The notes under the pieces were generated by a model. That model had not been told where the DNA came from. It worked only from the letters and a program-made list of their open reading frames with translations, and ran no database searches. This document shows, piece by piece, positions 7,501 through 62,441 of a DNA stretch of 64,000 nucleotides; within the stretch, counting starts at the first letter, position 1; the number at the start of each line of letters is the position of its first letter. The stretch is taken from positions 994,501 through 1,058,500 of the forward strand of contig OY727099.1 of assembly GCA_963402885.1 (NCBI GenBank). Direction: 5' to 3'. The DNA comes from Antedon bifida (taxonomy: Eukaryota > Echinodermata > Crinoidea > Comatulida > Antedonidae). A program made the translations under genes and the position numbers.

Positions 7501-7618
7501 GGATCCTACATTTTTAGATCCATGGGTGGGTCACCAAATTCTTTTATGTTTGTAAAATGTATCTTGAACACCAGATATTTCAGAAAAAGGTTATTAGCGG
7601 CTTTAAAATAGACTAAAA

Positions 7619-7737
7619 CTCTGTCTACACTATCAAACTAGTTTGATAAAAAAAGTGTGATGTGCCCAAATGTGGTAGTAATATGACATCATCATGTCCA
7701 TATATGGGCACATGAAGTTTGATAGTGTAGACAGAGC
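7619..7737 (+). mobile_element. MITE, CTCTGTCTACAC family, complete copy
   Basis: The termini are perfect inverted repeats: CTCTGTCTACACTATCAAAC on the left and its complement on the right, ending GTGTAGACAGAG. The interior has GTGTGATGTGCCCAAAT and TATATGGGCACAT. The flanks suggest a TAA-type 3-bp target duplication as in PIF/Harbinger elements, which is inference. Related copies are at 41868, 47065, 58487 and 62309. It has no coding capacity. Confidence 0.88.
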
Positions 7738-9545: not shown

Positions 9546-9858
9546 TAGTCAGTTGCTTCATTTATGAATAAGAAGAAGTAGGTAAAAATATGAAAGATAG
9601 ACTACACGAATGTGTGTAATTGTAAGGGACACCTTCAGACCAAACAATGTATTTATCCTTAACATAATAGGGACTTTCCCTGTAGGTGTTGGCTTAAAAA
9701 GAGTTAAACAAAACTTTATTGTTTTTGTAAAAATACAAAGAAATATATGGTTGCCAGCAATTCTGATAGTAAAAACATACATATTGTACGGTACATAAAC
9801 TGACTGATAAAATATTCACAAATGCAGTCAGTTGATGCTAAAAACATCAATATTATTA

Positions 9859-9913
9859 TTAGGTGATCATTTAGAATAAAATGATCACCTATTGTTATTG
9901 TATAAAATCTTTA
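9859..9913 (+). mobile_element. Helitron/Helentron-like family A, 5' end of outermost unit A0
   Basis: It starts TTAGGTGATCATTTAGAA and continues into an imperfect palindrome, with the inverse arm ending GATCACCT at 9890. It then follows the family-A leader ATTGTTATTGTATAAAATCT and stops at an A, where A1 begins. The imperfect palindrome suggests it is older than A1. The preceding host base is A, consistent with insertion at A|T. Its 3' remainder is probably A5 at 27183-28528. Confidence 0.8.
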
Positions 9914-11490
9914 TTAGGTGATCATTTAGAATTCTAAATGATCACCTATTGTTATTGTATGAAATCTTTATTTTTTTTCTTTTTATTGTTTCTGTACACT
10001 ATTTTGTGTAACAATTATCTCAAAAAGTTTAATGTCAATGATTACAAAAATTTCAGAATATCTTTCAAATAATATAACTTAATCCTAATAAGCTTTCCAG
10101 CGTGATCACTCATCCGTGACGACATTTATACGCCATTTTGCGAAATCACATTATCAATCATATCTCCACAATTCATTATCACATATTAATAAAATTCACT
10201 ACACGTAAACTTCAGATCAAGGGTAAAAATATTAGCAAATAAAAACGCACGCGCACGTAGGTTCATGCGCGTGATATCGCGCGTTAAAAATTTAAAACGC
10301 TCAAAATTAAGTTTTGATCAATTTAGAGCATGAATTAGGCCATTTGCGTGTTTCAAAAAATTACTGCGCAAAAATGCGTTTTTGCGCGCGCGATACTTAA
10401 AAAGCGTAAAAAATATGAATTTCTTTTACAAATCTCATTCTACTCATCATCCTTAGTACATTCACCAAATTTGAGTCAGTTCCGACTTAAAATAACGCTA
10501 TACGAGCACGTTAAAAATGACAAAATGCGCACATTAATTTTACAAAATTTCTGAAAATGGTGAAAAATAGGTCTTTTTTAAAATGAAAATAATTCTTCAG
10601 AATGCAAGATGACCCCCGATTTTTTTAACTTATTCTGGAAGCCATTGAGTTGTAGATATGAATTCATGTACACATTTTACGTACAAAATGTTTTGACGTC
10701 ATCAAATGGCCACTTGAATTTAAAAATTAGGATTTGTTATCTTTTTGTGTAGATTATCACATTCAACAGAGCGCATCTTGGTTATGTGTGCTCGAATTTC
10801 GCACAACTTTCAGTATGTGCTTGCTTAATTAATTATCTTTATCATGAGTTGACACTATCTTCATTTTAATGACGTCATCACGCGTAAAAACTTGAATAAC
10901 GTAGGCCGTGTAATTTCACCTTCACAGTAAATTTGAATATCTTACAGCTCTTCAGAATTGAAGGTTACCTTGATGATTATAATTTATTATGAAAGCTGAT
11001 GAAATGTAGATATTAATTCATATAAAAATTAAGCCTATCGGATGTTGTGACGTTAACATATGGCCAGTTGAAGTGAAAAAGTAGTTTTTTCATATTTTTC
11101 GTCAAAGTTATACACAATTCAAAGAGCGCGCACAGCGCTTCTACGTGCCAATTTTTTTTCAAAATCTTATATTTTTTTGCTCAATTAATTATCTTTCGAA
11201 ATTGTCATCTTAAAGTTTAGTTTGATAACGTCATCATGCCAAAAAATTAGAACATGTGTGTCCCGTAATTTCACCTATGCTACACTGTATATATAGATAT
11301 ACAGTATATACTGTACATATTGTATATGGCATATAGGCACAACTCAGCACTATAAGCATATAATAGGATGGCATACATCAACATTTTCCGATCGTATGTT
11401 AACGTACGTGCATGTTTAAAAAAAATTAATTTCAGTAAAATGATAAAAGTGATCACCTATAATTCGTCAAAGTGACGAATTAAATTCTAG
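9914..11490 (+). mobile_element. Helitron/Helentron-like family A, complete unit A1
   Basis: A 1577-bp non-coding element. The 5' end is TT followed by a perfect 32-bp palindrome with arm AGGTGATCATTTAGAA (9916-9947). Next come a T-rich tract, a CpG-rich region, and a core with TGACGTCA at 10694 and 10870 and variants at 11048 and 11226. The 3' arm TGATCACCT (11450-11458) is the inverse of the 5' arm. A hairpin follows (AATTCGTC, loop AAAGT, GACGAATT, 11461-11481) and the unit ends in CTAG. A 3' hairpin, CTAG end and no target duplication are Helitron features; subterminal inverted repeats are typical of the Helentron branch. No Rep/helicase protein is encoded. Confidence 0.85.
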
Positions 11491-11554
11491 TTAGGTGATC
11501 ATTTAGAATGCTAAATGATCACCTATTGTTATTGTATGAAATCTTTATTTTTTT
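11491..11554 (+). mobile_element. Family A unit A2, 5' part (split by B1 and B2)
   Basis: It starts TTAGGTGATCATTTAGAA directly after the CTAG of A1, a clean head-to-tail junction. The palindrome is followed by the family-A leader and a T run. It joins in sequence to 14760: together they give A, eight T, C, five T, ATTG, the same as in A1 (9970-9987). B1 and B2 therefore sit inside A2. Confidence 0.85.
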
Positions 11555-13149
11555 TTGGTTTTCCGCAACGAAGTTGCAGGAAAACCTCTTGTGATTGTAC
11601 GAAATCATCATCATCATCTTTTTTTTCATCTTCTTTCTTTCTGTATGATTTTTGTGTAACGCTTTTCTCTAAAACTTGCAAACATAACATTTTTTTAACT
11701 ATGTTGACATTTTGACATTTATGTAACGTCGTCAAGCGAAGCTTTTCATGATGCTTACAATTGCGCAACGTGACGTACGCGCGATTTAACGATTTTCTCG
11801 TATTTAACATAGCTCGACAACCAAATAACATTTCAACTTGAAACTTTGCAAAAGTTTAATTTATATTATGCGCTAACTTTCTGTGGAAAAAAAATTGCGT
11901 GTTTTACACAAAGTTACGCGCGCACGCGCATTTAAAATTTCAAAATGCGCAAAATTAATTTATAATCAACTTTCTACGCGTTTCATGTCGTTTTAAGCAT
12001 GTCAAAAATTCCCACGCGTGCGCACATTTTTACGTGTGCGGTGCGCACGTAGCATTGAAAACGTATTTTTTTCGCGTGATTTATGTTTTTCCAGCCTTTT
12101 CTAGTAATTTTTCCAAATTTTAAACAATTTCGACTTAAAGATACGTCATACGAGCACGTCGAATTGGACAATTTGCGCGCGTTTTTTATGAAAAGGTTAA
12201 AAAATTCGTTTAAAATATGCCTTTTTTTAAACAGTCGTAATTTCTAAACTAGACGGTCAACTTTTTGTGGATGGCATATTCTGGAAGTAGATGAGTTGTA
12301 GATATCGTATCAGGTATTAATATGGCTAACCGGACATTGTGACGTCATCGTATGGCCACGCGAATATAAAATTTAGGATTTTTGTATCTTTCGTCATAGC
12401 TTACCACATTGAATAGAGCGCATCTCCACTTATCCGTTTTCCATTTTCACCCCGATTTTGATATTGTCTAGGTCAATCAACTATCTTTCGCAGGAGTTAA
12501 AAATATTTTAATTTTTTTGACGTCATCATGCCTAAAAATTTAAATCACGTGTGGCATTAATTTCATCTTTACAGTAAATTTTAATCTGTTATAGCTCGTA
12601 AGAATAAAATGTGATAATCACGATTAAAACTTTTTCTGGAAGCTATTGGATTGTAGATACGAAACTATGTAAAAATGTTGCCAATCGGATGTTGTGACGT
12701 CATCATATGGCCAGTTAAATAAAAAAGGTCGTATTTTCATCTTTTGCGTCATAATTCATTACATTTAAAAGAGCGCGCATCAATATTTCACGTATTCAAA
12801 TTTCTTCTACACGCTAATACGTTGTTGCTGAGATAATTTCCTTTCGGAAATGCTACCTTCGCGTTTCATTTTAAAACCGTCAACATGTTAAAAATTGCAA
12901 TAAATATCGGGTCCCGTAATTTCACCTATTCTACACTGTATGTGATATGGATACAGATTATACTGTGTATACTATATATGAATTTAAATAATAAAATTCA
13001 GCAATAACAACATATCATATTCTTCAGTTCAGGTCATAATGCCAACGTGAACACTTCCTTTTGTCCTCAACCTATCCCCTTAATGTTAATGTTGCACCAC
13101 TTGCGCGGCGGAAAACCAAACTCGTCAAAGTGACGAGTTACATGTCTAG
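11555..13149 (+). mobile_element. Family B unit B1, complete, subtype GGTTTTCC
   Basis: A 1595-bp element. The 5' hairpin has arms GGTTTTCCGC (11557-11566) and GGAAAACC (11579-11586), with an inner GCAAC/GTTGC stem. It continues with an (ATC)5 and T-rich stretch and a CpG-rich region. The core has TGACGTCA at 12340, 12518 and 12695 and a variant at 12875. The 3' arm is GCGGAAAACC (13108-13117), then the hairpin AACTCGTC/GACGAGTT and CTAG. Small open frames on the minus strand recur between copies, but only because the DNA does. Confidence 0.85.
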
Positions 13150-14759
13150 TTGGTTTTCCGCAACGAAGTTGCAGGAAAACCTCTTGTGATTGTACGAAAT
13201 CAACATCATCTTTTTCTTGATCTTCTTTCTTTCTGTATGATTTTTGTGGAACGCTTTTCTCCAAAACTTGCAAACATAACATTTTGTAACTTTCTCAACA
13301 TATCGTCATGCACATGAAGATGTGCTGCGAAGCTTTTCATGACGTTTACAATTGCGCAACGTGACTTACGCGTGATTTAACGATTTCTTCGTATTTAACA
13401 TAGGTCGAAAACCAAATAACATTTCAAATTGAAACTTTCCAAAAGTTTAATTTATATCGTGCGCTAACTTTCTGTTGAAAAAAATTTGCGTGTTTTACAT
13501 AAAGTTACGCGCGCACGCGCATTTAAAATTTCAAAATGCGCAAAATTAATTTCTAATCAACTTTCTACGCGTTTCCTGTCGTTTTAAGCATGTAAAAAAT
13601 TCCCACGCGTGCGCAAATTTGTACGTGTGCGGTGCGCACGTAGCATTGAAAACGTATTTTTTTCGCGTGATTTATGTTTTTCCAGCCTTTTCTAGTAATT
13701 TTACCAAATTTTAAACAATTTCGACTTAAAGATACGTCATACGAGCACGTCGAATTGGACAATTTGCGCGCGTTTTTTATGAAAAGGTTAAAAAATTCGT
13801 TTAAAATATGCATTTTTTTAAACAATCGTAATTTCTAAACTAGACGGTCAACTTTTTGTGGATGGCATATTCTGGAAGTAGATGAGTTGTAGATATTGGA
13901 TCATGTATTAATATGGCTAACCGGACATTGTGACGTCATCGTATGGCCACGCGAATATAAAATATAGGATTTTTGTATCTTTCGTCATAGCTCACCACAT
14001 TGAATAGAGCGCATCTCCACTTATCCGTTTTCCATTTTCACCCCGATTTTGATATTGTCTAGGTCAATCAACTATCTTTCTCAGGAGTTAAAAATATTTT
14101 AATTTTTTTGACGTCATCATGCCTAAAAATTTAAATCACGTGTGGCATTAATTTCATCTTTACAGTAAATTTTAATCTGTTATAGCTCGTAAGAATAAAA
14201 TGTGATAATCACGATTAAAACTTTTTCTGAAAGCTATTGAATTGTAGATACGAAATCATGTGAAAATTTTGCCAATCGGATGTTGTGACGTCATCATATG
14301 GCCAGTTAAATGAAAAAAGTCGTATTTTCATCTTTTGCGTCATAATTCATTACATTTAAAAGAGCGCGCATCAATATTTCACGTATTCAAATTTCTTCTA
14401 GACGTTAATATGTTGTTGCTGAGATAATTTCCTTCCGAAATTGCTACCTTCGCATTTCATTTTAAAACCGTCAACATGTTAAAATTTGCAATAAATAGCG
14501 GGTCCCGTAATTTCACCTATTCTACACTGTGTGATATGGATACAGATTATACTATGTATACTATATATGATTCAAAATAATAGAATTCAGCAATAACAAC
14601 ATATCATATTCTTCAGTTCAGGTCATAATGCCAACGTGAACACTTCCTTTTGTCCTCAACCTATCCCTTAATGTTAAAAGGTACGTCGTTACACGTTCAT
14701 GTTGCACCACTTGCGCGGCGGAAAACCAAACTCGTCAAAGTGACGAGTTACATGTCTAG
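13150..14759 (+). mobile_element. Family B unit B2, complete, subtype GGTTTTCC
   Basis: A 1610-bp unit in direct head-to-tail contact with B1 (CTAG followed at once by TTGG). The 5' arm GGTTTTCCGC (13152-13161) and 3' arm GCGGAAAACC (14718-14727) match. Apart from the 5' spacer, it resembles B1 closely throughout. Confidence 0.85.
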
Positions 14760-16254
14760 TCTTTTTATTGTTTCTGTACACTATTTTGTGTAACAATTAT
14801 CTCAAAAAGTTTAATGTCAATGATTACCAAAATTTCAGAATATCTTTCAAATAATATAACTTAATCCTAATAAGCTTTCCAGCATGATCACTCATCCGTG
14901 ACGACATTTATACGCCATTTTGCGAAATCACATTATCAATCATATCTCCATAATTCATTATCACATATTAATGAAATTCACTACACGTAAACTTCAGGTC
15001 AAGGGTAAAAATATTAGCAAATAAAAACGCACGCGCACGTAGGTTCATGCGCGTGATATCGCGCGTTAAAAATTTAAAACGCTCAAAATTAAGTTTTGAT
15101 CAATTTAGAGCATGAATTAGGCCATTTGCGTGTTTCAAAAAATTACTGCGCAAAAATGCGTTTTTGCGCGCGCGATACTTAAAAAGCGTAAAAAATATGA
15201 TTTTTTTTTACAAATCTCATTCTACTCACCATCCTTAGTACATTCACCAAATTTGAGTCAGTTCCGACTTAAAATAACGCTATACGAGCACGTTAAAAAT
15301 GACAAAATGCGCATATTAATTTTACAAAAGTTCTGAAAATGGTGAAAAATAGGTCTTTTTTAAAATGAAAATAATTCTTCAGAATGCAAGATGACCCCCG
15401 ATTTTTTTAACTTATTCTGGAAGCCATTGAGTTGTAGATATGAATTCATGTACACACTTTACGTACAAAATGTTTTGACGTCATCAAATGGCCACTTGAA
15501 TTTAAAAATTAGGATTTGTTATCTTTTTGTGTAGATTATCACATTCAACAGAGCGCATCTTGGTTATGTGTGCTCGAATTTCGCACAACTTTCAGTATGT
15601 GCTTGCTTAATTAATTATCTTTATCATGAGTTGACACGATCTTCATTTTAATGACGTCATCACGCGTAAAAACTTGAATAACGTAGGCCGTGTAATTTCA
15701 CCTTCGCAGTAAATTTGAATATCTTACAGCTCTTCAGAATTGAAGGTTACCTTGATGATTATAATTTATTATGAAAGCTGATGAAATGTAGATATTAATT
15801 CATATAAAAATTAAGCCTATCGGATGTTGTGACGTTAACATATGGCCAGTTGAATTGAAAAAGTAGTTTTTTCAAATTTTTCGTCAAAGTTATACACAAT
15901 TCAAAGAGCGCGCACAGCGCTTCTACGTGCCAAATTTTTTTCAAAATCTTATATTTTTTTGCTCAATTAATTTTCTTTCGAAATTGTCATCTTAAAGTTT
16001 AGTTTGATAACGTCATCATGCCAAAAAATTAGAACATGTGTGTCCCGTAATTTCACCTATGCTACACTGTATATAGTGTACATATTGTATATGGCATATA
16101 GGCACAACTCAGCACTATAAGCATATAATAGGATGGCATACATCAACATTTTCCGATCGTATGTTAACGTACGTGCATGTTTAAAAAAATTAATTTCAGT
16201 AAAATGATAAAAATGATCACCTATAATTCGTCAAAGTGACGAATTAAATTCTAG
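14760..16254 (+). mobile_element. Family A unit A2, body and 3' end
   Basis: It continues A2 from 11554 and is very close to A1 in sequence. It ends with the 3' arm, the hairpin AATTCGTC/GACGAATT and CTAG. With its 5' part the unit is 1559 bp. Confidence 0.85.
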
Positions 16255-16288
16255 TTTTTTTTATTTTTTTTATTTTTTTTATTTTTTT
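16255..16288 (+). mobile_element. Family A unit A3, T-rich 5' remnant
   Basis: A tract of T runs with single A bases, directly after the CTAG of A2. No AGGTGATCA palindrome is present, so A3 appears to start within the T-rich zone. Its body resumes at 20987 after the inserted B5, B3 and B4. Confidence 0.6.
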
Positions 16289-16350
16289 TTGGTTATCCGC
16301 AACGAAGTTGCAGGATAACCTCTTGTGATTGTACGAAATCAACATCTTTT
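16289..16350 (+). mobile_element. Family B unit B5, 5' part (split by B3 and B4), subtype GGTTATCC
   Basis: A 62-bp 5' end with hairpin arms GGTTATCCGC (16291-16300) and GGATAACC (16313-16320). It joins 19468 to give AACATCTTTTTCTTGATC, identical to intact B6 at about 22637-22654. The joined length is 1581 bp, exactly that of B6. Confidence 0.87.
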
Positions 16351-17952
16351 TTAGTTATCCGCATTTAGCGGATAACTCCTTGTAACTGTCCTGTTTCATC
16401 ATCTTTTTTTTTTTTCTGTATTCTTCTTTCTTTCTGTCATTTTTGTGTCACGCGTAACTCAAAAACGTGTAAACATAACATTTTATAACTTTGTCAACAT
16501 GTGGGCGTTCACGTGAAGTTGTGCACCCGCTATTGTGAATGACGTCATAGTTGCGCAACGTGACTTACGCGCGTTTTTATGAATTTCGCGTATTTAACAT
16601 AGATCGAAAACCATATAACATTTTAATTTGAAACTTAGAAAAAGTTTAAGTTATATCTTGCGCTAACTGACTGTGAGAAAAAAATGGCATGTTTTACACG
16701 AAGTTACGCGCGCACGCGCGTTTAAAATTTCAAAATGCGAAAAATCTATTTCTAATTAACTTTCTACGCGTTTTATGTCATTTTGAGCATGTCAAAAATT
16801 CCCACGCGCGCGCATATTTTTATGCGCGAGGTGCGCACGTAGCGTTATAAACAATTTTTTTTCAGGTGATTTATGTTTTTCCAGCCTTTTCAAGTAATTT
16901 TACCAACTTTTAAACAATTTCGACTTAAAATTAACGTCATACCAGCACGTCGAATTGGATAATTTACGTACGTTTTTTATGAAAAAGTTCAAAAATTCCT
17001 TAAAATTTGTCAAAATTATACCTTTTTTAAAACAGTCGTAGTTTCTAAACTAAACGGTAAAAGTTATTTTTATTACGTATTCTGGAAGATGATGAGTTGT
17101 AGATATCGTATCATGCATCAATATTGCTAACAGGACATTGTGACGTCATCGTATGGCCATGTGAATATAAAATATAGGATTTTTGTATCTTTTGTCATAG
17201 AGCATCACATTTAATAGAGCGCATCTTCGCTTATCCGTTTTTCATTTTAACCCAGATTTTGATATTTTTTAGGTCAATCAACTACCTTTCGCATGGGTTA
17301 AAAATATTTTAATTTTTTTGACGTCATCATGTCTAAAAATGTAAATAACGTGGGTCACTTATTTTCATCTTTACAGTAACTTTCAATCTGTTATAGCTCG
17401 TCAGAATAAAAAGAGGTAATCATGATTAAAACGTTTTCTGGAAGCTATTGTATTGTAAATACGAATTCATATCAAAATTTTTCCAATCCGACGTTGTGAC
17501 GTCATCATATGGCCAGTTGAACAAAAAAAATTGTATTTTCATCTTTTGCGTCATAGTTCATCACATTTAAAAGAGCGCGCATCTATATTTTACGTATTCA
17601 AATTTCTTCTACATGTTAATATGTTGTTACTGAGATAATATCCTTCCGAAATTGCTATCTTAGTGTTTCATTTTGATACCGTCGCCATGTTAAGAATAGG
17701 AATAAACGGGGGGGTCCCGTAATTTCACCTATTCTACACTGTATGTAATATGTATACAGATTATACCGTTTAATACTGTATATACTATATGACACAAAAT
17801 TGACAGAATTCAAAACTAACAACATATCATATTGTTCAGTTCAGGTCATAATGCTATAATCTTTTTCCGTGTGCTATATTCCAACGTATGACGTGCACGT
17901 GGCGTTTGTCGTGCGGATAACTAACTCGTCAAAGTGACGAGTTCAAATCTAG
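16351..17952 (+). mobile_element. Family B unit B3, complete, subtype AGTTATCC
   Basis: A 1602-bp unit, visibly more diverged from the other B copies. The 5' hairpin is AGTTATCCGC (16353-16362) paired with GCGGATAACT (16368-16377). The 3' arm GCGGATAACT (17913-17922) matches this subtype, not the GGTTATCC subtype of B5. An extra TGACGTCA lies at 16540. It ends with the hairpin AACTCGTC/GACGAGTT (17923-17943) and CTAG. Confidence 0.85.
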
Positions 17953-19467
17953 TCTTTATCTTCTTTCTTTCTGTAATTTTTGTGTCACGCGTATCTGTAA
18001 AACTTGCAAACATAACATTTCGTAACTTTCTCAACATATCTTCATTCATATGAAGTTGTGCAGCGAACCTTTTCAGGATGTTTACAATTGCGCAACGTGA
18101 CTTACGCGCGATTTAACGATTTTCTCGTATTTAACATAGGTCAAAAACCAAATAACATTTTAAATTGAAACTTTGCAAAAGTTTAATTTATATCATGCGC
18201 TAACTTTCTGTTGAAAAAAAATTGCGTGTTTTACAAAAAGTTACGCGCGCACGCGCATTTAAAATTTTAAAATGCGCAAAATTAATTTCTAATCAAATTT
18301 CTACGCGTTTCATGTCATTTTAAGCATGTCAAAAATTCCCACGCGTGCGCAAATTTTTACGTGTGCGGTGCGCACGTAGCATTAAAAACATATTTTTTTC
18401 ACGTGATTTATGTTTTTCTAGCCTTTTCTAGTAATTTTACCAACTTTTAAACACTTTCGACTTAAAAGTTACGTCATACGAGCCCGTCGAATTGGACAAT
18501 GTGCGCGTGTTTTTGATGAAAAAGTTCAAAAATTCGTCAAAATTATGCCTTTTTTTAAACAGTCGTAATTTCTAAACTGCACGGTCAACTTTTTGTGGAT
18601 GACATATTCTGGAAGTTGATGAGTTGTAGATATCAGATCATGTATTAATATGGCTAACCGGACATTGTGACGTCATCGTATGGCCACGCGAATATAAAAT
18701 TTATGATTTTTGTATCTTTCGTCATAGCTCATCACATTTAATAGAGCGCATCTCCACTTATCCGTTTTCCATTTTCACCTCGATTTTGATATTGTCTAGG
18801 TCAATCAACTATCTTTCGCATGAGTTAAAAATATTTTAATTTTTATGACGTCATCATGCCTAAAAATTTAAATTACGTCTGGCATTAATTTCATCTTTAC
18901 AGTAAATTTTAATCTGTTATAGCTCGTAAGAATAAAATGTGATAATCACGATTAAAACGTTTTCTGGAAGCTATTGGATTGTAGATACGAAATCATGTGA
19001 AAATTTTGCCAATCGGATGTTGTGACGTCATCATATGGCCAGTTAAATAAAAAATGTCGTATTTTTATCTTTTGCGTCATAATTCATTACATTTAAATGA
19101 GCGCGCATCAATATTTCACATATTCAAATTTCTTCTACACGTTAATATGTTTTTGCTGAGATAATTTCCTTCTGAAATTGCTACCTTCGCGTTTCATTTT
19201 AAAACCGTCAACATGTTAAAAATTGCAATAAATGGCAGGTCCCATAATTTCACTTATTCTACACTTATGTAATATGTATACCTGTTATACTATATATACT
19301 ATATGACACAAAATTGACAGAATTCAGCACTAACAAAATATCATATTCTTCAGTTCAGGTCATAATGCCATAATCTTTTTCTGTGTGCAATATTCCAACG
19401 TATGACGTGCACGTGGCGTTTGTCGTGCGGATAACTAACTCGTCAAAGTGACGAGTTACATGTCTAG
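17953..19467 (+). mobile_element. Family B unit B4, lacks 5' hairpin
   Basis: A 1515-bp unit that starts TCTTTATCTTC directly after the CTAG of B3, without a 5' hairpin. The 3' arm is GCGGATAACT (19427-19436), the same subtype as B3, followed by the standard hairpin and CTAG. B3 and B4 may share one 5' end after incomplete rolling-circle termination, or B4 may have lost its own. Confidence 0.8.
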
Positions 19468-20986
19468 TCTTGATCTTCTTTCTTTCTGTATGATTTTTGT
19501 GGAACGCTTTTCTCTAAAACTTGCAAACATAACATTTTGTAACTTTCTCAACATATCGTCATGCACATGAAGATGTGCTGCGAAGCTTTTCATGACGTTT
19601 ACAATTGCGCAACGTGACTTACGCGTGATTTAACGATTTCCTCGTATTTAACATAGGTCGAAAACCAAATAACATTTCAAATTGAAACTTTCCAAAAGTT
19701 TAATTTATATCATGCGCTAACTTTCTGTTGAAAAAAAATTGCGTGTTTTACATAAAGTTACGCGCGCACGCGCATTTAAAATTTCAAAATGCGCAAAATT
19801 AATTTCTAATCAACTTTCTACGCGTTTTATGTCGTTTTAAGCATGTAAAAAATTCCCACGCGTGCGCAAATTTGTACGTGTGCGGTGCGCACGTAGCATT
19901 GAAAACATATTTTTTTCGCGCGATTTATGTTTTTCCAGCTTTTTCTAGTAATTTTACCAAATTTTAAACAATTTCGACTTAAAGTTACGTCATATGACCA
20001 CGTTGAATTGGACGATTTGCGCGCGTTTTTGATGAAAAAGTTCAAAAATCCGTTAAAAATATGCCTTTTTTTAAACAGTCGTAATTTCTAAACTACACGG
20101 TCAACTTTTTGTGGATGACATATTCTGGAAGATGATGAGTTGTAGATATCGGATCAGGTATTAATATGGCTAACCGGACATCGTGACGTCATCGTATGGC
20201 CACACGAATATAAAATTTAGGATTTTTGTGTCTTTCATCATAGCTCCTCACATTAAATAGAGCGCATCTCCACTTATTCGTTTTCCATTTTCACCCCGAT
20301 TTTGATATTGTCTAGGTCAATCAACTATCTTTCGCATGAGTTAAAAATATTTTAATTTTTATGACGTCATCATACCTAAAAATTTAAATTACGTGTGGCA
20401 TTAATTTCATCTTTACAGTAAATTTTAATCTGTTATAGCTCGTAAGAATAAAATATGATAATCACGATTAAAACGTTTTCTGGAAGCTATTGGATTGTAG
20501 ATACGAAATCATGTAAAAATTTTGCCAATCGGATGTTGTGACGTCATCATATGGCCAGTTAAATAAAAAAGGTCGTATTTTCATCTTTTGCGTCATAATT
20601 CATTACATTTAAAAGAGCGCGCATCAATATTTCACGTATTCAAATTTCTTCTACACGTTAATATGTTGTTGCTGAGATAATTTTCTTCCGATATTGCTAC
20701 CTTCGCGTTTCATTTTAAAACCGTCAACATGTTGAAAATTGCAATAAATAGCGGGTCCCGTAATTTCACCTATTCTACACTGTATGTGATATGGATACAG
20801 ATTATACTGTGTATACTATATATGAATCTAAATAATAAAATTCAGCAATAACAACATATCATATTCTTCAGTTCAGGTCATACGTGAACACTTCCTTTTG
20901 TCCTCAACCTATCCCCTTAATGTTAATGTTGCACCACTTGCGCGGCGGATAACCAAACTCGTCAAAGTGACGAGTTACATGTCTAG
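19468..20986 (+). mobile_element. Family B unit B5, body and 3' end
   Basis: It continues B5 from 16350. It is nearly identical to B6 (22646-24164). The 3' arm GCGGATAACC (20945-20954) matches the GGTTATCC arm of its detached 5' part. It ends in CTAG. Confidence 0.87.
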
Positions 20987-22497
20987 TATTTTTATTGTTT
21001 CTGTACACTATTTTGTGTAACAATTATCTCAAAAAGTTTAATGTCAATGATTACAAAAATTTCAGAATATCTTTCAAATAATATAACTTAATCCTAATAA
21101 GCTTTCCAGCGTGATCACTCATCCGTGACGACATTTATACGCCATTTTGCGAAATCACATTATCAATCATATCTCCATAATTCATTATCACATATTAATG
21201 AAATTCACTACACGTAAACTTCAGATCAAGGGTAAAAATATTAGCAAATAAAAACGCGCGCGCACGTAGGTTCATGCGCGTGATATCGCGCGTTAAAAAT
21301 TTAAAATGCTCAAAATTAAGTTTTGATCAATTTAGAGCATGAATTAGGCCATTTGCGTGTTTCAATAAATTACTGCGCAAAAATGCGTTTTTGCGCGCGC
21401 GATACTTAAAAAGCGTAAAAAATATGAATTTTTTTTACAAATCTCATTCTACTCACCATCCTTAGTACATTCACCAAATTTGAGTCAGTTCCGACTTAAA
21501 ATAACGCTATACGAGCACGTTAAAAATGACAAAATGCGCATATTAATTTTACAAAAGTTCTGAAAATGGTGAAAAATAGGTCTTTTTTAAAATGAAAATA
21601 ATTCTTCAGAATGCAAGATGACCCCCGATTTTTTAAACTTATTCTGGAAGCCATTGAGTTGTAGATATGAATTCATGTACACACTTTACGTACAAAATGT
21701 TTTGACGTCATCAAATGGCCACTTGAATTAAAAAATTAGGATTTGTTATCTTTTTGTGTAGATTATCACATTCAACAGAGCGCATCTTGGTTATGTGTGC
21801 TCGAATTTCGCACAACTTTCAGTATGTGCTTGCTTAATTAATTATCTTTATCATGAGTTGACACTATCTTCATTTTAATGACGTCATCACGCGTAAAAAC
21901 TTGAATAACGTAGGCAGTGTAATTTCACCTTCGCAGTAAATTTGAATATCTTACAGCTCTTCAGAATTGAAGGTTACCTTGATGATTATAATTTATTATG
22001 AAAGCTGATGAAATGTAGATATTAATTCATATAAAAATTAAGCCTATCGGATGTTGTGACGTTAACATATGGCCAGTTGAAGTGAAAAAGTAGTTTTTTC
22101 ATATTTTTCGTCAAAGTTATACACAATTCAAAGAGCGCGCACAGCGCTTCTACGTGCCAAATTTTTTTCCAAATCTTATATTTTTTTGCTCAATTAATTA
22201 TCTTTCGAAATTGTCATCTTAAAGTTTAGTTTGATAACGTCATCATGCCAAAAAATTAGAACATGTGTGTCCCGTAATTTCACCTATGCTACACTGTATA
22301 TAGATATACAGTATATACTGTACATATTGTATATGGCATATAGGCACAACTCAGCACTATAAGCATATAATAGGATGGCATACATCAACATTTTCCGATC
22401 GTATGTTAACGTACGTGCATGTTTAAAAAAAATTAGTTTCAGTAAAATGATAAAAATGATCACCTATAATTCGTCAAAGTGACGAATTAAATTCTAG
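20987..22497 (+). mobile_element. Family A unit A3, body and 3' end
   Basis: It starts TATTTTTATTGTTTCTG and follows A1 and A2 closely to the 3' arm, hairpin and CTAG (22494-22497). Confidence 0.83.
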
Positions 22498-22521
22498 TTA
22501 TTATTTTTTTTCTTTTTTTTT
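22498..22521 (+). mobile_element. Family A unit A4, T-rich 5' remnant
   Basis: TTATTA and T runs directly after the CTAG of A3, without the family-A palindrome. The body resumes at 25697 after B7 and B6. Confidence 0.6.
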
Positions 22522-22583
22522 TTGGTTTTCCGCAACGAAGTTGCAGGAAAACCTCTTGTGATTGTACGAAATCATCATCATCA
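22522..22583 (+). mobile_element. Family B unit B7, 5' part (split by B6), subtype GGTTTTCC
   Basis: The arm GGTTTTCCGC is at 22524-22533. Joining 22583 to 24165 restores five ATC units and eight T, exactly as in B1 (11605-11628). The joined length is 1594 bp against 1595 bp for B1; one visible difference is a single T lost near 24576. Confidence 0.87.
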
Positions 22584-24164
22584 TTGGTTATCCGCAACGA
22601 AGTTGCAGGATAACCTCTTGTGATTGTACGAAATCAACATCTTTTTCTTGATCTTCTTTCTTTCTGTATGATTTTTGTGGAACGCTTTTCTCTAAAACTT
22701 GCAAACATAACATTTTGTAACTTTCTCAACATATCGTCATGCACATGAAGATGTGCTGCGAAGCTTTTCATGACGTTTACAATTGCGCAACGTGACTTAC
22801 GCGTGATTTAACGATTTCCTCGTATTTAACATAGGTCGAAAACCAAATAACATTTCAAATTGAAACTTTCCAAAAGTTTAATTTATATCATGCGCTAACT
22901 TTCTGTTGAAAAAAAATTGCGTGTTTTACATAAAGTTACGCGCGCACGCGCATTTAAAATTTCAAAATGCGCAAAATTAATTTCTAATCAACTTTCTACG
23001 CGTTTTATGTCGTTTTAAGCATGTAAAAAATTCCCACGCGTGCGCAAATTTGTACGTGTGCGGTGCGCACGTAGCATTGAAAACATATTTTTTTCGCGCG
23101 ATTTATGTTTTTCCAGCTTTTTCTAGTAATTTTACCAAATTTTAAACAATTTCGACTTAAAGTTACGTCATATGACCACGTTGAATTGGACGATTTGCGC
23201 GCGTTTTTGATGAAAAAGTTCAAAAATCCGTTAAAAATATGCCTTTTTTTAAACAGTCGTAATTTCTAAACTACACGGTCAACTTTTTGTGGATGACATA
23301 TTCTGGAAGATGATGAGTTGTAGATATCGGATCAGGTATTAATATGGCTAACCGGACATCGTGACGTCATCGTATGGCCACACGAATATAAAATTTAGGA
23401 TTTTTGTGTCTTTCATCATAGCTCCTCACATTAAATAGAGCGCATCTCCACTTATTCGTTTTCCATTTTCACCCCGATTTTGATATTGTCTAGGTCAATC
23501 AACTATCTTTCGCATGAGTTAAAAATATTTTAATTTTTATGACGTCATCATACCTAAAAATTTAAATTACGTGTGGCATTAATTTCATCTTTACAGTAAA
23601 TTTTAATCTGTTATAGCTCGTAAGAATAAAATATGATAATCACGATTAAAACGTTTTCTGGAAGCTATTGGATTGTAGATACGAAATCATGTAAAAATTT
23701 TGCCAATCGGATGTTGTGACGTCATCATATGGCCAGTTAAATAAAAAAGGTCGTATTTTCATCTTTTGCGTCATAATTCATTACATTTAAAAGAGCGCGC
23801 ATCAATATTTCACGTATTCAAATTTCTTCTACACGTTAATATGTTGTTGCTGAGATAATTTTCTTCCGATATTGCTACCTTCGCGTTTCATTTTAAAACC
23901 GTCAACATGTTGAAAATTGCAATAAATAGCGGGTCCCGTAATTTCACCTATTCTACACTGTATGTGATATGGATACAGATTATACTGTGTATACTATATA
24001 TGAATCTAAATAATAAAATTCAGCAATAACAACATATCATATTCTTCAGTTCAGGTCATACGTGAACACTTCCTTTTGTCCTCAACCTATCCCCTTAATG
24101 TTAATGTTGCACCACTTGCGCGGCGGATAACCAAACTCGTCAAAGTGACGAGTTACATGTCTAG
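22584..24164 (+). mobile_element. Family B unit B6, complete, subtype GGTTATCC
   Basis: A 1581-bp unit inserted between A and T of B7. The arms are GGTTATCCGC (22586-22595), GGATAACC (22608-22615) and, at the 3' end, GCGGATAACC (24123-24132). It is nearly identical to B5, which indicates a recent duplication or transposition. Confidence 0.87.
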
Positions 24165-25696
24165 TCTTTTTTTTCATCTTCTTTCTTTCTGTATGATTTT
24201 TGTGTAACGCTTTTCTCTAAAACTTGCAAACATAACATTTTTTTAACTATGTTGACATTTTGACATTTATGTAACGTCGTCAAGCGAAGCTTTTCATGAT
24301 GCTTACAATTGCGCAACGTGACGTACGCGCGATTTAACGATTTTCTCGTATTTAACATAGCTCGACAACCAAATTACATTTCAACTTGAAACTTTGCAAA
24401 AGTTTAATTTATATTATGCGCTAACTTTCTGTGGAAAAAAAATTGCGTGTTTTAAACAAAGTTACGCGCGCACGCGCATTTAAAATTTCAAAATGCGCAA
24501 AATTAATTTATAATCAACTTTCTACGCGTTTCATGTCGTTTTAAGCATGTCAAAAATTCCCACGCGTGCGCACATTTTACGTGTGCGGTGCGCACGTAGC
24601 ATTGAAAACGTATTTTTTTCGCGTGATTTATGTTTTTCCAGCCTTTTCTAGTAATTTTACCAAATTTTAAACAATTTCGACTTAAAGATACGTCATACGA
24701 GCACGTCGAATTGGACAATATGCGCGCGTTTTTTATGAAAAGGTTAAAAAATTCGTTTAAAATATGCCTTTTTTTAAACAGTCGTAATTTCTAAACTAAA
24801 CGGTCAACTTTTTGTGGATGGCATATTCTGGAAGTAGATGAGTTGTAGATATCGTATCAGGTATTAATATGGCTAACCGGACATTGTGACGTCATCGTAT
24901 GGCCACGCGAATATAAAATTTAGGATTTTTGTATCTTTCGTCATAGCTTACCACATTGAATAGAGCGCATCTCCACTTATCCGTTTTCCATTTTCACCCC
25001 GATTTTGATATTGTCTAGGTCAATCAACTATCTTTCGCAGGAGTTAAAAATATTTTAATTTTTTTGACGTCATCATGCCTAAAAATTTAAATCACGTGTG
25101 GCATTAATTTCATCTTTACAGTAAATTTTAATCTGTTATAGGTCGTAAGAATAAAATGTGATAATCACGATTAAAACTTTTTCTGGAAGCTATTGGATTG
25201 TAGATACGAAACTATGTAAAAATGTTGCCAATCGGATGTTGTGACGTCATCATATGGCCAGTTAAATAAAAAAGGTCGTATTTTCATCTTTTGCGTCATA
25301 ATTCATTACATTTAAAAGAGCGCGCATCAATATTTCACGTATTCAAATTTCTTCTACACGCTAATACGTTGTTGCTGAGATAATTTCCTTTCGGAAATGC
25401 TACCTTCGCATTTCATTTTAAAACCGTCAACATGTTAAAAATTGCAATAAATATCGGGTCCCGTAATTTCACCTATTCTACACTGTATGTGATATGGATA
25501 CAGATTACACTGTGTATACTATATATGAATTTAAATAATAAAATTCAGCAATAACAACATATCATATTCTTCAGTTCAGGTCATAATGCCAACGTGAACA
25601 CTTCCTTTTGTCCTCAACCTATCCCCTTAATGTTAATGTTGCACCACTTGCGCGGCGGAAAACCAAACTCGTCAAAGTGACGAGTTACATGTCTAG
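24165..25696 (+). mobile_element. Family B unit B7, body and 3' end
   Basis: It continues B7 from 22583 and is nearly identical to B1. The 3' arm GCGGAAAACC (25655-25664) matches its own detached GGTTTTCC arm rather than the neighbouring B6 subtype. It ends in CTAG. Confidence 0.87.
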
Positions 25697-27182
25697 TTCT
25701 TTTTATTGTTTCTGTACACTATTTTGTGTAACAATTATCTCAAAAAGTTTAATGTCAATGATTACAAAAATTTCAGAATATCTTTCAAATAATACAACTT
25801 AATCCTAATAAGCTTTCCAGCGTGATCACTCATCCGTGACGACATTTATACGCCATTTTGCGAAATCACATTATCAATCATATCTCCATAATTCATTATC
25901 ACATATTAATGAAATTCACTACACGTAAACTTCAGATCAAGGGTAAAAATATTAGCAAATAAAAACGCACGCGCACGTAGGTTCATGCGCGTGATATCGC
26001 GCGTTAAAAATTTAAAACCCTCAAAATTAAGTTTTGATCAATTTAGAGCATGAATTAGGCCATTTGCGTGTTTCAAAAAATTACTGCGCAAAAATGCGTT
26101 TTTGCGCGCGCGATACTTAAAAAGCGTAAAAAATATGAATTTTTTTTACAAATCTCATTCTACTCACCATCCTTAGTACATTCACCAAATTTGAGTCAGT
26201 TCCGACTTAAAATAACGCTATACGAGCACGTTAAAAATGACAAAATGCGCACATTTATTTTACAAAAGTTCTGAAAATGGTGAAAAATAGGTCTTTTTTA
26301 AAATGAAAATAATTCTTCAGAATGCAAGATGACCCCCGATTTTTTTAACTTATTCTGGAAGCCATTGAGTTGTAGATATGAATTCATGTACACATTTTAC
26401 GTACAAAATGTTTTGACGTCATCAAATGGCCACTTGAATTTAAAAATTAGGATTTGTTATCTTTTTGTGTAGATTATCACATTCAACAGAGCGCATCTTG
26501 GTTATGTGTGCTCGAATTTCGCACAACTTTCAGTATGTGCTTGCTTAATTAATTATCTTTATCATGAGTTGACACTATCTTCATTTTAATGGCGTCATCA
26601 CGCGTAAAAACTTGAATAACGTAGGCCGTGTAATTTCACCTTCAGTAAATTTGAATATCTTACAGCTCTTCAGAATTGAAGGTTACCTTGATGATTATAA
26701 TTTATTATGAAAGCTGATGAAATGTAGATATTAATTCATATAAAAATTAAGCCTATCGGATGTTGTGACGTTAACATATGGCCAGTTGAAGTGAAAAAGT
26801 AGTTTTTTCATATTTTTCGTCAAAGTTATACACAATTCAAAGAGCGCGCACAGCGCTTCTACGTGCCAAATTTTTTTCCAAATCTTATATTTTTTTGCTC
26901 AATTAATTATCTTTCGAAATTGTCATCTTAAAGTTTAGTTTGATAACGTCATCATGCCAAAACATTAGAACATGTGTGTCCCGTAATTTCACCTATGCTA
27001 CACTGTATATAGATATACAGTATATACTGTACATATTGTATATGGCATATAGGCACAACTCAGCACTATAAGCATATAATAGGATGGCATACATCAACAT
27101 TTTCCGATCGTATGTTAACGTACGTGCATGTTTAAAAAAAAATTAATTTCAGTAAAATGATAAAAATGATCACCTATAATTC
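25697..27182 (+). mobile_element. Family A unit A4, body, 3' hairpin deleted
   Basis: It follows A1-A3 closely up to GATCACCTATAATTC and then breaks off. The hairpin and CTAG are absent, and the sequence runs straight into an internal position of A5. Confidence 0.8.
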
Positions 27183-28528
27183 AATGTGAAATCACATTAT
27201 CAAATATATCTCCATAATTCATTATCACATATTAATGAAATTCACTACACGTAAACTTCAGGTCAAGGGTAAAAATATTAGCAAATAAAAAGTTGCGCGT
27301 TTCAAGGTCATGCACGTGAAATCGCGCGTTAAAAATTTAGAACGCTCAAAATTAAGTTTTGATCAATTTAGAGCATGAATTAGGCCATTTGCGCGTTTCA
27401 AAAAATTACTGCGCAAAAACACGTTTTTGCGCACGCGATTCTTAGAAAGCGTAAAAAATAAAATGTGATGTATAAATCACAATCTACTCACAATTCTTAG
27501 TACATTCACCGATTTTGAGTCCATTCCGACTTAAGATAACGCTATACGAGCACGTTAAAAATGACAAAATGCGCAAATTAATTGCATCAAAGTGCTGAAA
27601 ATGGTGAAAAATAAGGCATTTTTAAAATGAAAATAACTCTTCAGAATGCAAGATGACCCCCATTTTTTTTAACTTATTCGGGAAGCCATTGAGTTGTAGA
27701 TATGAATTCATGTACACATTTGACGTACAAAATGTTGTGACGTCATCAAATGGCCACTTGAATTTAAAATTAAGTTTTTTTTCTCTTTTGTCATATTTTA
27801 TCACATTCAATAGAACGCGTCTCTAATAATTTGTGCCTGATTTTCGCTCAAATTTTAATATGTGATTTCTCTATTAATTGACTTTCTCATGACCTGCCAC
27901 TATTTTTATTTTGATGACGTCATCACGCGTAAAAACTTGAATAACGTAGGTCGTGTAATTTCACCTTCGCCGTAAATTTGAATATCTTACAGCTCTTCAG
28001 AATTAAAGGTTACCTTGATAATTATAATGTATTATGAAAGCTGATGAAATGTAGATATGAATTCATATAAAAATTAAGCCTATCGGATGTTGTGACGTTA
28101 ACATATGGCCAGTTGAAGTTAAAAAGTAGTTTTTTCATCTTTTTCGTCAAAGTTATACAAATTTCAAAGAGCGTGCACAGCGCATCTACGTGCCAAATTC
28201 TCTTCCAATTCTTATATTTATTTGCTCAATTCATTATCTTTCGAAATTGTCATCTTCGAGTTTATTTTGATAATTCCATCATACCAAAAAATTAGAACAC
28301 GATGTGTGTCCCGTAATTTCACCTATGCTACACTGTATATAGATACATTATATACTGTACATATTGTATATGGCATATAATAGGCACAACTCAGCACTAA
28401 AGCGTATAATAGGATGGCATACATCAACATTTTCTGATCGTATGTTAACGTACGTGCAAAAAAATTATTTCGGTCAAATGATAAAAATGATCACCTATAA
28501 TTCGTCAAAGTGACGAATTAAATTCTAG
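27183..28528 (+). mobile_element. Family A unit A5, 5'-truncated and diverged
   Basis: It begins inside the family-A sequence (GAAATCACATTATCAA) and keeps a complete 3' arm, hairpin and CTAG (28525-28528). It differs from A1-A4 at many more sites than they differ from each other, so it is probably the oldest copy and the 3' part of A0. The host base after CTAG is T. Confidence 0.8.
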
Positions 28529-29030
28529 TTAATATTATTAATGTATGAACTGCTATAAAATTATTGATTCATTTCTTTAAGCCAACATTGCACTTACAAA
28601 TGGAATGTCGATAAAATTTGATAAATGGTTGTTAAATATTATATGTTGTGAATAATTATTTGATTCATCCGACATGCCTTTAAAGAGAGAGAAAATAAAA
28701 TGGTCAAAGTTAGTTACATACTCAAAGATGTATAATTTTTTGATAATTTTCTAAGCATAAAAAACAACAATAAATGAGATTTTTAATTTGTTCATTATAT
28801 TAATTTTAATAATAATTTATTAAAAAAAAATCTCTTTAATGTAAAGATTTCATAACAAATAAAGACAAATGAAATCAAATTTGAATTATCCCATTTTGTA
28901 GTTTTTAGAAATTACTCACTTTTGGCAAAATGAAAAAGAATATATAACAAATTCGTTTATAAAAAATAAATTAACCTAAAACTCACTGACTTCCAGGCAA
29001 TAGGCGTCTGGTTGTATATTTATTTCTTTA

Positions 29031-41702: not shown

Positions 41703-41867
41703 GCTTAGATATTAAATGCAGTATATATTACATATGATATTGTCAAATCACAATGAAATAAAAAACAATACACCTATGAAAAGCTTAAATCTAAAGTTGT
41801 CTCCCAAAACATGAAAAATAAAGATGAATATAATCAAACTTGGAATACAGGACATTTTGTAGTTTTA

Positions 41868-41940
41868 ATCTCGGTCTACACTATCAAACTAGTTTGACAA
41901 AAAAAGTGTGATGTGCCCAAATACGGTAGATGACATCATT
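41868..41940 (+). mobile_element. MITE, CTCTGTCTACAC family, left half
   Basis: AATCTCGGTCTACACTATCA, then GTGTGATGTGCCCAAATACG and ATGACATCATT. The right half and right terminus are absent. Confidence 0.8.
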
Positions 41941-44812: not shown

Positions 44813-45078
44813 TTTTGGTTACAGTACTATCTACAAATTTCACAGATTTAAATTTGGATATTAAAAAGCATAGATTTAAGATGGTAGTCATGGAAACTAA
44901 TATTTGTTTAATCATGTGATTTATTGGTTTAATTTGGCTAACTCCCAACTGTCTATTTTAAAATGTATAAATAGAAGTTAATAGTAATTTTGTAAATTTA
45001 GTTTAATATGTTAAAAGACTGCTGGGAACTACTTTAAAAGAAAAAAATTATATCGGTGTAGTAAATTTTTTTATTACA

Positions 45079-45540
<462 letters not shown>

Positions 45541-46078: not shown

Positions 46079-47064
46079 TGGCTAAGTTAAATTGTAGTAT
46101 TTCGTAGTAACTATTATCATTATTTACAGTGTTAATTATTAACAGTAATGATGAAACTGTAATTTATCTCCAATGTTGTGCAATAACAATCGCATTGTCC
46201 AGCAAAACTCTGAATTTGCACACACTTGGATGTCAACACCGTTTTGTGTGGTGTGTGCGCTCTGAGGTGTGTAAACAACTGAGTTTTGCTATAGCCAATG
46301 TGAAAGGGATGTGTGACACTTAGGCTGCATTTTAGGCTGGCACTAAAACATTTATATTGTAACTATTGACAAATGACAGTCTAACTAAATGAACATTCCA
46401 TAGATGAAAGTGATGTTTACACAGTAGTGAGAGGTCTTCCAAGTGCGATTCATTGGCTTAGAATTCAATAGAAACATCTTCTAGCTAGGCCAAGTTCATT
46501 GTATTATAGTGTCAGATGAAAGAATTGTGAATGGGCAACCAAGCAATTTATGCCTTAAAAATCAATAAGATTGCCTAGCGGATAACTCCTTCATTTAACA
46601 CATAGCCACGAGGGGGCTGTTAGCCTATGTAACAAAGGTTATGTGGTAAATTGTTACAGGTTATTAGCATTTTGTACTCAAGCAGGTTGCTCACAGGAAG
46701 AAAATCAGATTTTAGAAAATGGATTTAGGCCTAATGAGGCTTACCTGAGGATGAGAAGAGCAATGTTGATATACTGAGTATCTCTGTTTATTCCAATGTT
46801 TATATATTGTATACAACCAAGGAGGTATAAGTAGGGTTAGAATACAAGGAGTGCCTGAGGCAATTGGCCCCATCAACAGTTTTTAGAATCAAGTTCTTGC
46901 TGTAGTAACAGGTCTGAGAATTAAATCAGACGTTTGAGGAATTTTGATTTACAAATGTAACCCTCACAACTACTTTATTAAACCATGCAAGAGGAATTGA
47001 GATTATCATTTGATAAAAAGGATCGTGAAGGTCGTCAATTTTGGGCAAAAGGCGCACGTAAGTT

Positions 47065-47185
47065 AAGCTCTGTCTACACTACCAAACTAGTTTGACCAAA
47101 AAAGTGTGATGTGCCCAAATATGGTAGTAATATGACATCATCTTGTCCATGGGTACATCTCATTTTTTTGTTACGTAAAGTTTGA
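47065..47185 (+). mobile_element. MITE, CTCTGTCTACAC family, degraded right end
   Basis: AAGCTCTGTCTACACTACCA, GTGTGATGTGCCCAAATATG, then ATGACATCATCTTGTCCATG. The right terminus stops at TAAAGTTTGA without the outer part. Confidence 0.85.
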
Positions 47186-47699: not shown

Positions 47700-47845
47700 T
47701 TGTGTAGGATTTTCCTTGAAGAAGGGGTGTCCCAAAAGAGGCGTGTCCTGAAAGGGGTGTCCCGAAAGAGTAGTGTCCCAAAAGAGGGATGTCCGAAAGA
47801 GGAGTGTCCCGAAAGAGGGGTGTCACAAAAGAGCATTGTCATAAG
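47700..47845 (+). repeat. Minisatellite GTGTCCCGAAAGAG, about 8 units
   Basis: Units of about 14-17 bp (GTGTCCC(A/G)AAAGAG) repeat with small changes. The words overlap those of the GGGACACCTT repeat family, so the array may have expanded from one of those copies. Confidence 0.88.
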
Positions 47846-50597: not shown

Positions 50598-50690
50598 TTC
50601 GAGAAGCCCACCGTTGATGATTTGTTTTGTGATCTTCGAGATGGTAACCAATTGTTAAGTCTGCTAGAGGTCCTATGTCAGAAACAATTT
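50598..50690 (+). CDS. Dystrophin/utrophin-like protein, coding exon 3 (CH1 middle)
   Basis: 93 nt from a TTTCTCCCACAG acceptor to a GTAAGT donor, in phase 0 at both ends. It encodes residues 53-83, including VDDLFCDLRDGNQLLSLLEV. DLxDGxxLLxLLE is the conserved helix motif of CH domains. The length equals vertebrate DMD exon 3. The frame stays open for another 267 bases into intron 3, but that extension has no homology and exon 4 fits directly. Confidence 0.96.
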
Positions 50691-51104
50691 GTAAGTTTAA
50701 CAGAATTGTTTTGTAACAGGGGGTTTCTACTTATAATAAGCTGTGCTTCAGAGATTCCCCTTTTCATTCTTTTGTTTTGTACTATGATTAATTATGTATA
50801 TTTATTTATTTATTTTGTGAATGGAAATAAAGAAAGAAAGAATTACTGCTGCTTTTTTAGTTTGACACCTTTGCTTCTTTGGTTGACAGTGATATTTTAT
50901 TTGGCTTTGCTTATGATTAATTTAATTTATGAATATGATTGTTTAATTTATTCATAAACATGAATGATTTGCGTTATTTGTTGTGTCCTTAGATTTCACC
51001 AATACATTTTTGGCCGTGTTTTCAAATTGATTTCCAATAAATATTGTTGATACATATTGCATGATGTTGGCATACATTGTAACTGCTGCCCTCTATCATT
51101 TCAG
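50691..51104 (+). other. Intron 3 (414 bp)
   Basis: GTAAGT to TCATTTCAG. A stretch near 50800-50840 (TTTATTTATTTATTTTGTGA, then ATGGAAATAAAGAA) looks like the tail of an old retrotransposon, at low confidence. Confidence 0.93.
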
Positions 51105-58486: not shown

Positions 58487-58618
58487 AAGCTCTGTCTACA
58501 CTATCAAACTAGTTTGACAAAATGTGATATAACCATGAAAGATGGTGATGTCATCGTTTCCATATCGGGGCACATAACATTTTTGTTGTCACATAAAGTT
58601 TGATAGTGTAGACAGAGG
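58487..58618 (+). mobile_element. MITE, CTCTGTCTACAC family, complete copy
   Basis: AAGCTCTGTCTACACTATCA at the left and GTTTGATAGTGTAGACAGAG at the right. The interior is diverged (AAAGATGGTGATGTCATCG). Confidence 0.88.
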
Positions 58619-62308: not shown

Positions 62309-62441
62309 AAGCTCTGTCTACACTATCAAACTAGTTTGACAAAAAAAGTGCCCAAATATGGTAGTGATATGCTTAAATATGGTAGTAATGTGCCATCATC
62401 ATGCCCATATATGGGCACATCACATTTTGTTTCAGAGCTTT
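62309..62441 (+). mobile_element. MITE, CTCTGTCTACAC family, variant copy
   Basis: The left end is AAGCTCTGTCTACACTATCA. The right end keeps only CAGAGCTT. The interior repeats the AAATATGGTAGT phrase, as in the partial copy at 5191. Confidence 0.85.

Follow-up and report, generated by a model that had tools for sequence, protein, structure and literature searches.

Positions 9859-28528 of the window analysed here, a 64,000-nucleotide stretch of the genome of the crinoid Antedon bifida (contig OY727099.1), hold an array of 12 non-coding units of two families, A and B, which fit HINEs (non-autonomous Helentrons) and not canonical Helitrons. Most probably, the array is a HINE colony that was moved by Helentron-type transposases and in which relatives already in place served as landing pads for new copies. 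Within or behind another HINE lay 37 of 41 sampled B-type copies, and it is this strong enrichment of relatives as targets that leads us to regard resident copies as landing pads. The elements themselves are of a known kind; the mode of array growth, in its precision and its family matching, may be a new variation on the known self-insertion of Helitrons.

Architecture and classification of the array

The window corresponds to C12:994501-1058500 of a 315.6-Mb assembly with 27 contigs (C-numbers are contig labels). It has a GC content of about 32%, a eukaryote-like composition and a longest open reading frame of at most 114 amino acids; inside the array no open reading frame exceeds 100 amino acids, and Rfam and tRNA scans gave no matches. 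From 5' to 3', a unit consists of a leader (TT followed by a hairpin), a T-rich or ATC tract, a body, a 3' arm, a hairpin and a terminal CTAG. The 12 bodies, which are accompanied by nine hairpin leaders and 11 hairpin-CTAG ends, follow in the order A1, B1, B2, A2, B3, B4, B5, A3, B6, B7, A4 and A5. The features are as follows.

9859-9913, + strand: LA0, A-type leader (TT and palindromic subterminal inverted repeat, subTIR) with tract; outermost opener
9914-11490, + strand: A1, intact A-type HINE with leader, tract, body and hairpin-CTAG; 1577 bp
11491-11554, + strand: leader (folded) and tract of A2, hosting B1 and B2
11555-13149, + strand: B1, intact B-type HINE of the GGTTTTCC type; 1595 bp
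13150-14759, + strand: B2, intact B-type HINE, abutting the CTAG end of B1
14760-16254, + strand: body and 3' end of A2
16255-16288, + strand: tract of A3 (T8A repeats) without leader
16289-16350, + strand: leader and tract of B5, GGTTATCC type
16351-17952, + strand: B3 including its leader, AGTTATCC type
17953-19467, + strand: body of B4, without leader
19468-20986, + strand: body of B5; joined to 16289-16350 it equals B6 (0/1581 differences)
20987-22497, + strand: body of A3
22498-22521, + strand: tract of A4, without leader
22522-22583, + strand: leader and (ATC)n tract of B7
22584-24164, + strand: B6, intact B-type HINE of the GGTTATCC type, inside B7; 1581 bp
24165-25696, + strand: body of B7
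25697-27182, + strand: body of A4; 3' hairpin and CTAG lost
27183-28528, + strand: body of A5, 5' part lost; its CTAG closes the array

Identity to A1 ranges from 97.6% to 98.8% for A2-A4; A5 matches A1-A4 at about 89%. The A and B bodies are related, with identities of about 72-76% across parts. The A2 body with its 3' end is 99.8% identical to units on C8, C14 and C10.

An earlier note on this DNA, made from the sequence alone, had parsed the array as nested insertions; its limits, unit order and nesting are borne out. Removal of 16351-19467 rejoins B5 to 1581 bp without a single difference from B6, and removal of 22584-24164 rejoins B7 to 1594 bp with the junction (ATC)5 and T8 found in B1, from which the restored B7 differs by eight substitutions and one indel over the 1595 bp of B1. 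For A2, the note had claimed that removal of 11555-14759 restores the leader exactly as in A1; the tract is indeed that of A1 (AAATCTTTATTTTTTTTCTTTTTATTG), but one base of the hairpin loop differs. The aligned junctions thus agree with the intact copies at the three internal sites tested. Because the halves of a 0/1581 match lie 3.1 kb apart and the same architecture recurs in eight other arrays, a chance match is excluded for the architecture. A T directly follows 11 of the 11 ends in the window and 97 of the 97 CTAG ends in all nine arrays. Both tandem joints read CTAG/TT (CTAG/TTAGG and CTAG/TTGGT) and the restored B7 site reads CATC, which suggests that the two T before each leader are part of the element and that insertion takes place upstream of a T. 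Rolling-circle insertion without target duplication, as the note had proposed, fits the three internal sites, but with HINE/Helentron anatomy instead of that of a canonical Helitron.

The palindromic subTIR begins 2 nt from the 5' end, HINEs having subTIRs of 12-15 bp located 2-4 nt from that end, and the leader hairpins gave folding z-scores of -9.5 (A2) and -5.2 (B6). Reading of the ends gives an arm of 12-13 bp, including the TT, common to the leader and the 3' side. The 3' arm is type-matched and ends about 32 nt from the terminus, closer than in mite HINEs, for which 38-60 bp is given. The 3' palindrome (stem of 9-10 bp, loop of 3 nt) stops 8-10 nt before the end, within the 8-35 bp of HINEs, and the absence of target duplication at the three restorations, together with the T after every end, agrees with the HINE mode of insertion into T-rich targets. 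In the passages of two published accounts, on HINE/DINE-1-like elements (PMC4067079) and on oyster Cg_HINE (PMC7492417), palindromic subterminal repeats likewise lie 2 nt from the 5' end, a microsatellite or T tract stands behind the leader, a 3' arm and palindrome are present, and T-rich targets are used without duplication; long nested or tandem arrays with relatives as preferred targets are absent from these passages. A canonical Helitron (Helitron1) was rejected: the elements start with TTAGG or TTGGT in place of TC, and the A/T target is lacking, the base before TT being G in 36, A in 22 and T in 18 of 76 cases. The CTAG end with its upstream hairpin does conform to the canonical 3' end (CTRR with a hairpin), a feature that is insufficient alone. 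A miniature inverted-repeat (MITE) or terminal inverted-repeat transposon was also rejected, as the repeats are subterminal and no duplication was seen at the three restored sites.

Bracket order, losses and outer edges

A genome search for other arrays, suggested by the earlier note, yielded eight further ones with the same architecture, chosen among 90 A-body search matches (the best 30 of 3187 candidate regions were scored). In these and the window array, leaders were treated as opening and hairpin-CTAG ends as closing brackets, with a third type of leader, described below, counted as an opener (one in C10, two in C8 and two in C7b). All five arrays with both edges in view are balanced: C13 (5/5), C10 (12/12), C8 (6/6), C11 (6/6) and C7b (6/6). 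The counts are 8/7 for C12 (right edge), 11/13 for C14 and 25/31 for C7a, arrays with edges outside the view. Last-in-first-out pairing matched the type of the leader arm to that of the 3' arm in 71 of 74 pairs versus 46 of 74 for first-in-first-out pairing, third-leader openers being excluded; permuting the end types within arrays gave a mean of 44 and a maximum of 60 matches, and at least 71 in none of 2000 runs. For B leaders alone, the figures are 21/22 and 5/21, respectively. Two of the three last-in-first-out mismatches fall in the window array. The description of the array as a readable insertion history is therefore strengthened by the bracket test in nine arrays and weakened by three missing leaders and by the deletion between A4 and A5.

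This deletion contradicts the statement that no bases were duplicated or lost, taken for the whole array: A4 breaks off at 27182, short of its 3' hairpin and CTAG, and 27183 already lies inside the body of A5, so bases were lost at 27182/27183. With LA0 assigned to A5, the bodies of A3, A4 and B4 are without leaders; LA0 could alternatively belong to A3, between which the bracket rule alone does not decide. Leaders of A3, A4 and B4, if present, would sit in tandem-leader stacks of about 55-62 bp, and a simple explanation is that they were lost by contraction of such stacks. Leader stacks exist in this genome: C1:19291248-19291573 holds six of the listed A leaders, and a further run lies at C1:20891725-20892044. 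At both places, about six or more A leaders are spaced about 55-75 bp apart, as would result either from deep nesting or from the expansion of a leader repeat.

The exact empty site formed by the outer bracket A0(...)A5 was rejected owing to the A4/A5 deletion and the unmatched leaders. A search for an empty site around 9858/28529, which the note had suggested, found no paralogous one for the whole array among the scored candidates: each 800-bp outer flank matched in full length only at its own locus, and the outermost bracket is thus without paralogous support. The word AATATTATTA occurs at 9849-9858 and 28531-28540, beside or at most two bases from both outer ends; it is AT-rich, and its recurrence is possibly due to chance, or else reflects a target duplication or a favoured site.

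Sites of insertion and relatedness of units

The first sample of B-type copies consisted of 20 near-full-length copies from a score-ranked list (the best 26 of 2918 candidate regions were scored), among which 11 lay in a leader tract, six at an exact CTAG end, two a few bp past a CTAG and one in other DNA. The second, taken as every fifth row among 100 listed of 279 exact B-leader matches, which avoids the score bias, gave 11, 3, 4 (shortly after CTAG) and 2, and four extra rows gave 2, 1, 0 and 1, respectively. Together these are 41 distinct copies: 22 sit in the leader tract of a HINE, 10 exactly at a CTAG end and five up to about 40 bp past one, and four lie in non-HINE DNA. Exact leader patterns were also counted in the whole genome. 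The A leader occurs 1531 times, 298 of them directly after TCTAG, and 280 cases lie at most 12 bp from the AAATCTTTATT of another A leader; the B leader occurs 279 times (58 after TCTAG) and the third leader 136 times (132 after TCTAG). Reversed-pattern controls gave zero for leader patterns, apart from six for the 18-letter third-leader pattern. Attachment to relatives is thus partial for A, prevalent for B in the sample and almost complete for third-leader copies. TCTAG is frequent outside the array (32 on the + strand in 45 kb), and the bare CTAG word is therefore not explanatory. The insertion reading of the earlier note can accordingly be extended: the leader tracts and 3' ends of relatives, and not simply any T-rich site, were struck repeatedly.

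Exact 3' joints are family-matched. In the nine arrays, 44 join A to A (12 with the third leader), three join B to B and none crosses families (Fisher 6e-5), a count that includes the C7a duplicates and thus partly non-independent cases. Insertions into tracts do cross families (A in A 9, B in A 11, B in B 4), and those 1-59 bp past a CTAG end comprise four of A then B, four of A then A and one of B then B. A HINE hairpin precedes all 10 sampled exact B joints, nine of which lie behind B ends and one behind an A end. The third hairpin leader (TGAGAAATTG.../TGTAAAATTG...) stands almost exclusively right behind A-type CTAG ends: all 18 newly fetched flanks, each with the hairpin, and two sampled rows follow A ends. 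This leader caps several body types, some of them more than 99% identical to bodies without it.

The comparison of units drew on 83 parsed ones; B3 and A4 are not among them, as neither yielded a body-to-end pair. Of 82 units, 59 have their nearest relative in a different array and 22 in their own, with one tie; of the 10 parsed window units, seven have it in a different array. Neighbours at direct joints have a median identity of 90.7% (27 pairs; 7 of the 34 direct joints are without a value, as pairs below the coverage limit were excluded), with at least 99% in one of 27, and A pairs between arrays show 95.4%. At C8, C14 and C10, copies of one A subfamily show 100% identity throughout the aligned body, which indicates recent movement. 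In one array (C7:32746000-32795999), a large tandem duplication comprises five unit pairs in the same order that are 100% identical. Mobile dimers were rejected as a general cause of joints, because four third-leader bodies are 97.4-98.8% alike and their predecessors 83.9-91.1%. The B1-B2 order is seen again in C14, one other array, where the pair may have moved as a composite.

Related behaviour has been described in other rolling-circle elements. The excerpt on Fusarium FoHeli, a Helitron2-type element (PMC5148889), also reports self-insertion, duplicated short 5' termini, one copy inserted 2 bp upstream of the 5' end of another, joined-end forms and, in Metarhizium, three tandem copies. In that excerpt these are a few cases, whereas the present genome shows exact joints by the hundred, arrays with balanced brackets and a 3' joint matched by family. 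Nesting is shared with maize Helitrons, in which, according to the part of PMC3288121 consulted, nested copies give rise to multi-terminus elements; a preference for insertion near other Helitrons was reported by Yang and Bennetzen (2009), as cited in an excerpt of PMC12477314. Those passages concern canonical plant Helitrons and proximity; here, leader tracts and 3' ends are used to the exact base. The titles and abstract openings of the open-licence literature searched name neither family-matched 3' joints nor balanced HINE arrays, which is weak evidence of absence.

Proposed mechanism and alternative explanations

The genome contains 39 matches to PF14214 (Helitron_like_N), 38 of them above the cut-off, and 20 lie in open frames of at least 2000 codons with no stop in the match; the Rep/PIF1/endonuclease genes occupy open frames of up to 3,182 codons. 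One frame of 3152 amino acids has predicted Helitron_like_N, PIF1, Exo_endo_phos, OTU and DUF6570 domains, a set that is Helentron-like as judged from sequence. Two Rep gene copies are flanked by B-like HINE units in the opposite reading direction, the C8 copy with stacked leaders on one side and the C11 copy with a B-type CTAG end on the other; the boundaries of the Rep-bearing elements were located roughly. At C8:19811500-19829500, the open 3152-aa frame (OTU and endonuclease) stands beside oppositely directed nested HINEs. From this neighbourhood we infer that a Helentron-like protein may move the A and B elements.

HINEs would be mobilised by Helentron-type rolling-circle transposases, for which the Rep genes in the genome are the putative source, and a new copy would enter upstream of a T, with no duplication of the target. 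Entry into the tract behind the leader of a resident would split it into leader and body and produce nesting; entry exactly at the CTAG/T end of a resident would produce head-to-tail joints. The transposase may recognise or nick, on residents, termini that it also uses on donors, in which case each insertion would add landing sites, and missing leaders may have dropped out of stacks of tandem leaders. As to targeting, we tentatively propose that resident copies steer Helentron-type transposition, with the leader (the 5' hairpin) setting the target class: the third-leader class would insert almost only at 3' ends of its own family, and the same terminus would be read as donor end and as target.

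Several observations weigh against the landing-pad reading. Four of the 41 B copies are in non-HINE DNA, and the first 20 were score-ranked while the positional sample spans only C1, C7 and part of C8. Exact patterns place just 578 of 1531 A leaders in or behind relatives, and many look solitary among the 100 listed. One in 10 sampled exact B joints crosses families, and 22 of the 82 units have their nearest relative in their own array, 10 of these within the identical segmental duplication of C7a. The window array is itself unbalanced, with nine leaders for 12 bodies, a deletion at the A4/A5 junction, and a last-in-first-out pairing that gives 7/9 type matches, two mismatches and two unopened ends. 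The link to a transposase is one of neighbourhood in two copies, not of matched full termini.

A first alternative is that the head-to-tail joints arose from homologous recombination of circular HINE intermediates with residents (Campbell-like) or from concatemeric replication, only the nested units being insertions. Such an origin, which we consider unlikely though worth keeping in mind, would accord with the family matching of exact joints and not of tract insertions, with third-leader heads on several body types, as expected from recombination, and with the joined-end, probably circular forms in the excerpt on the Fusarium element (PMC5148889). Yet direct-joint neighbours resemble each other less (median identity 90.7%) than do A pairs from different arrays (95.4%), and concatemeric copying of one template was rejected since the joined units are not copies of each other. 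Furthermore, at two of the three loci that share the 100% identical A subfamily (C8, C14 and C10), the third-leader bodies that follow it differ; exchange thus seems to have taken place at unit ends rather than by crossovers inside units. It is very doubtful that the arrays grew for the most part from a founding nest by unequal crossing-over or segmental duplication: C7a does repeat 100% identical units in the same order, and B5 and B6 are identical, but the nearest relatives lie mostly in other arrays (59/82 units; 7/10 in the window), and B5 and B6 have different hosts (A3 and B7), different flanks and exact element termini.

That insertion follows T-richness only, HINE tracts being struck as T-rich DNA, seems improbable. 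It would explain the T to the right of 97/97 CTAG ends, and published HINEs favour T-rich sites according to the passage of PMC4067079. Exact CTAG ends are not T-rich tracts, however, and nevertheless received 10 of the 41 B copies and nearly all third-leader copies (132 of 136); although TCTAG is common, a HINE hairpin stands ahead of 10/10 B and 18/18 new third-leader joints. We attach very little probability to collapsed or misjoined repeats: near-identical 1.5-kb units are difficult to assemble, but nine arrays in a 27-contig assembly follow one grammar with different contents, and the window junctions restore to the base.

Outside the array, window positions 50586-50700 probably form an exon of a utrophin/plectin/dystrophin-like, actin-binding protein, with utrophin as the best match (E 3.5e-4); the longer frame there had no Pfam match, and a Pfam search of five stop-to-stop frames outside the array gave one match, below the cut-off. 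A (TTA)43 microsatellite with 96% matches lies at 45071-45199 and a tandem array with a unit of 16, 31 or 47 bp (AGGGGTGTCCC...) at 47723-47840. Self-comparison of the window revealed a short dispersed repeat family of about five copies (7613-7713, 41862-41929, 47063-47150, 58482-58522 and 62306-62420).

To our knowledge, the target choice of rolling-circle transposons is poorly understood. The hundreds of insertions in this genome are target records at base resolution, in which brackets order the events and leader types are natural variants. Where repeat libraries list leader stacks or leaderless bodies, these may have arisen by nesting and need not represent families of their own. The growth of such arrays is a simple way in which dispersed elements could become tandem and satellite-like; if the proposed steering is true, HINEs would form a self-seeding, base-exact insertion system, each insertion making the next landing sites.

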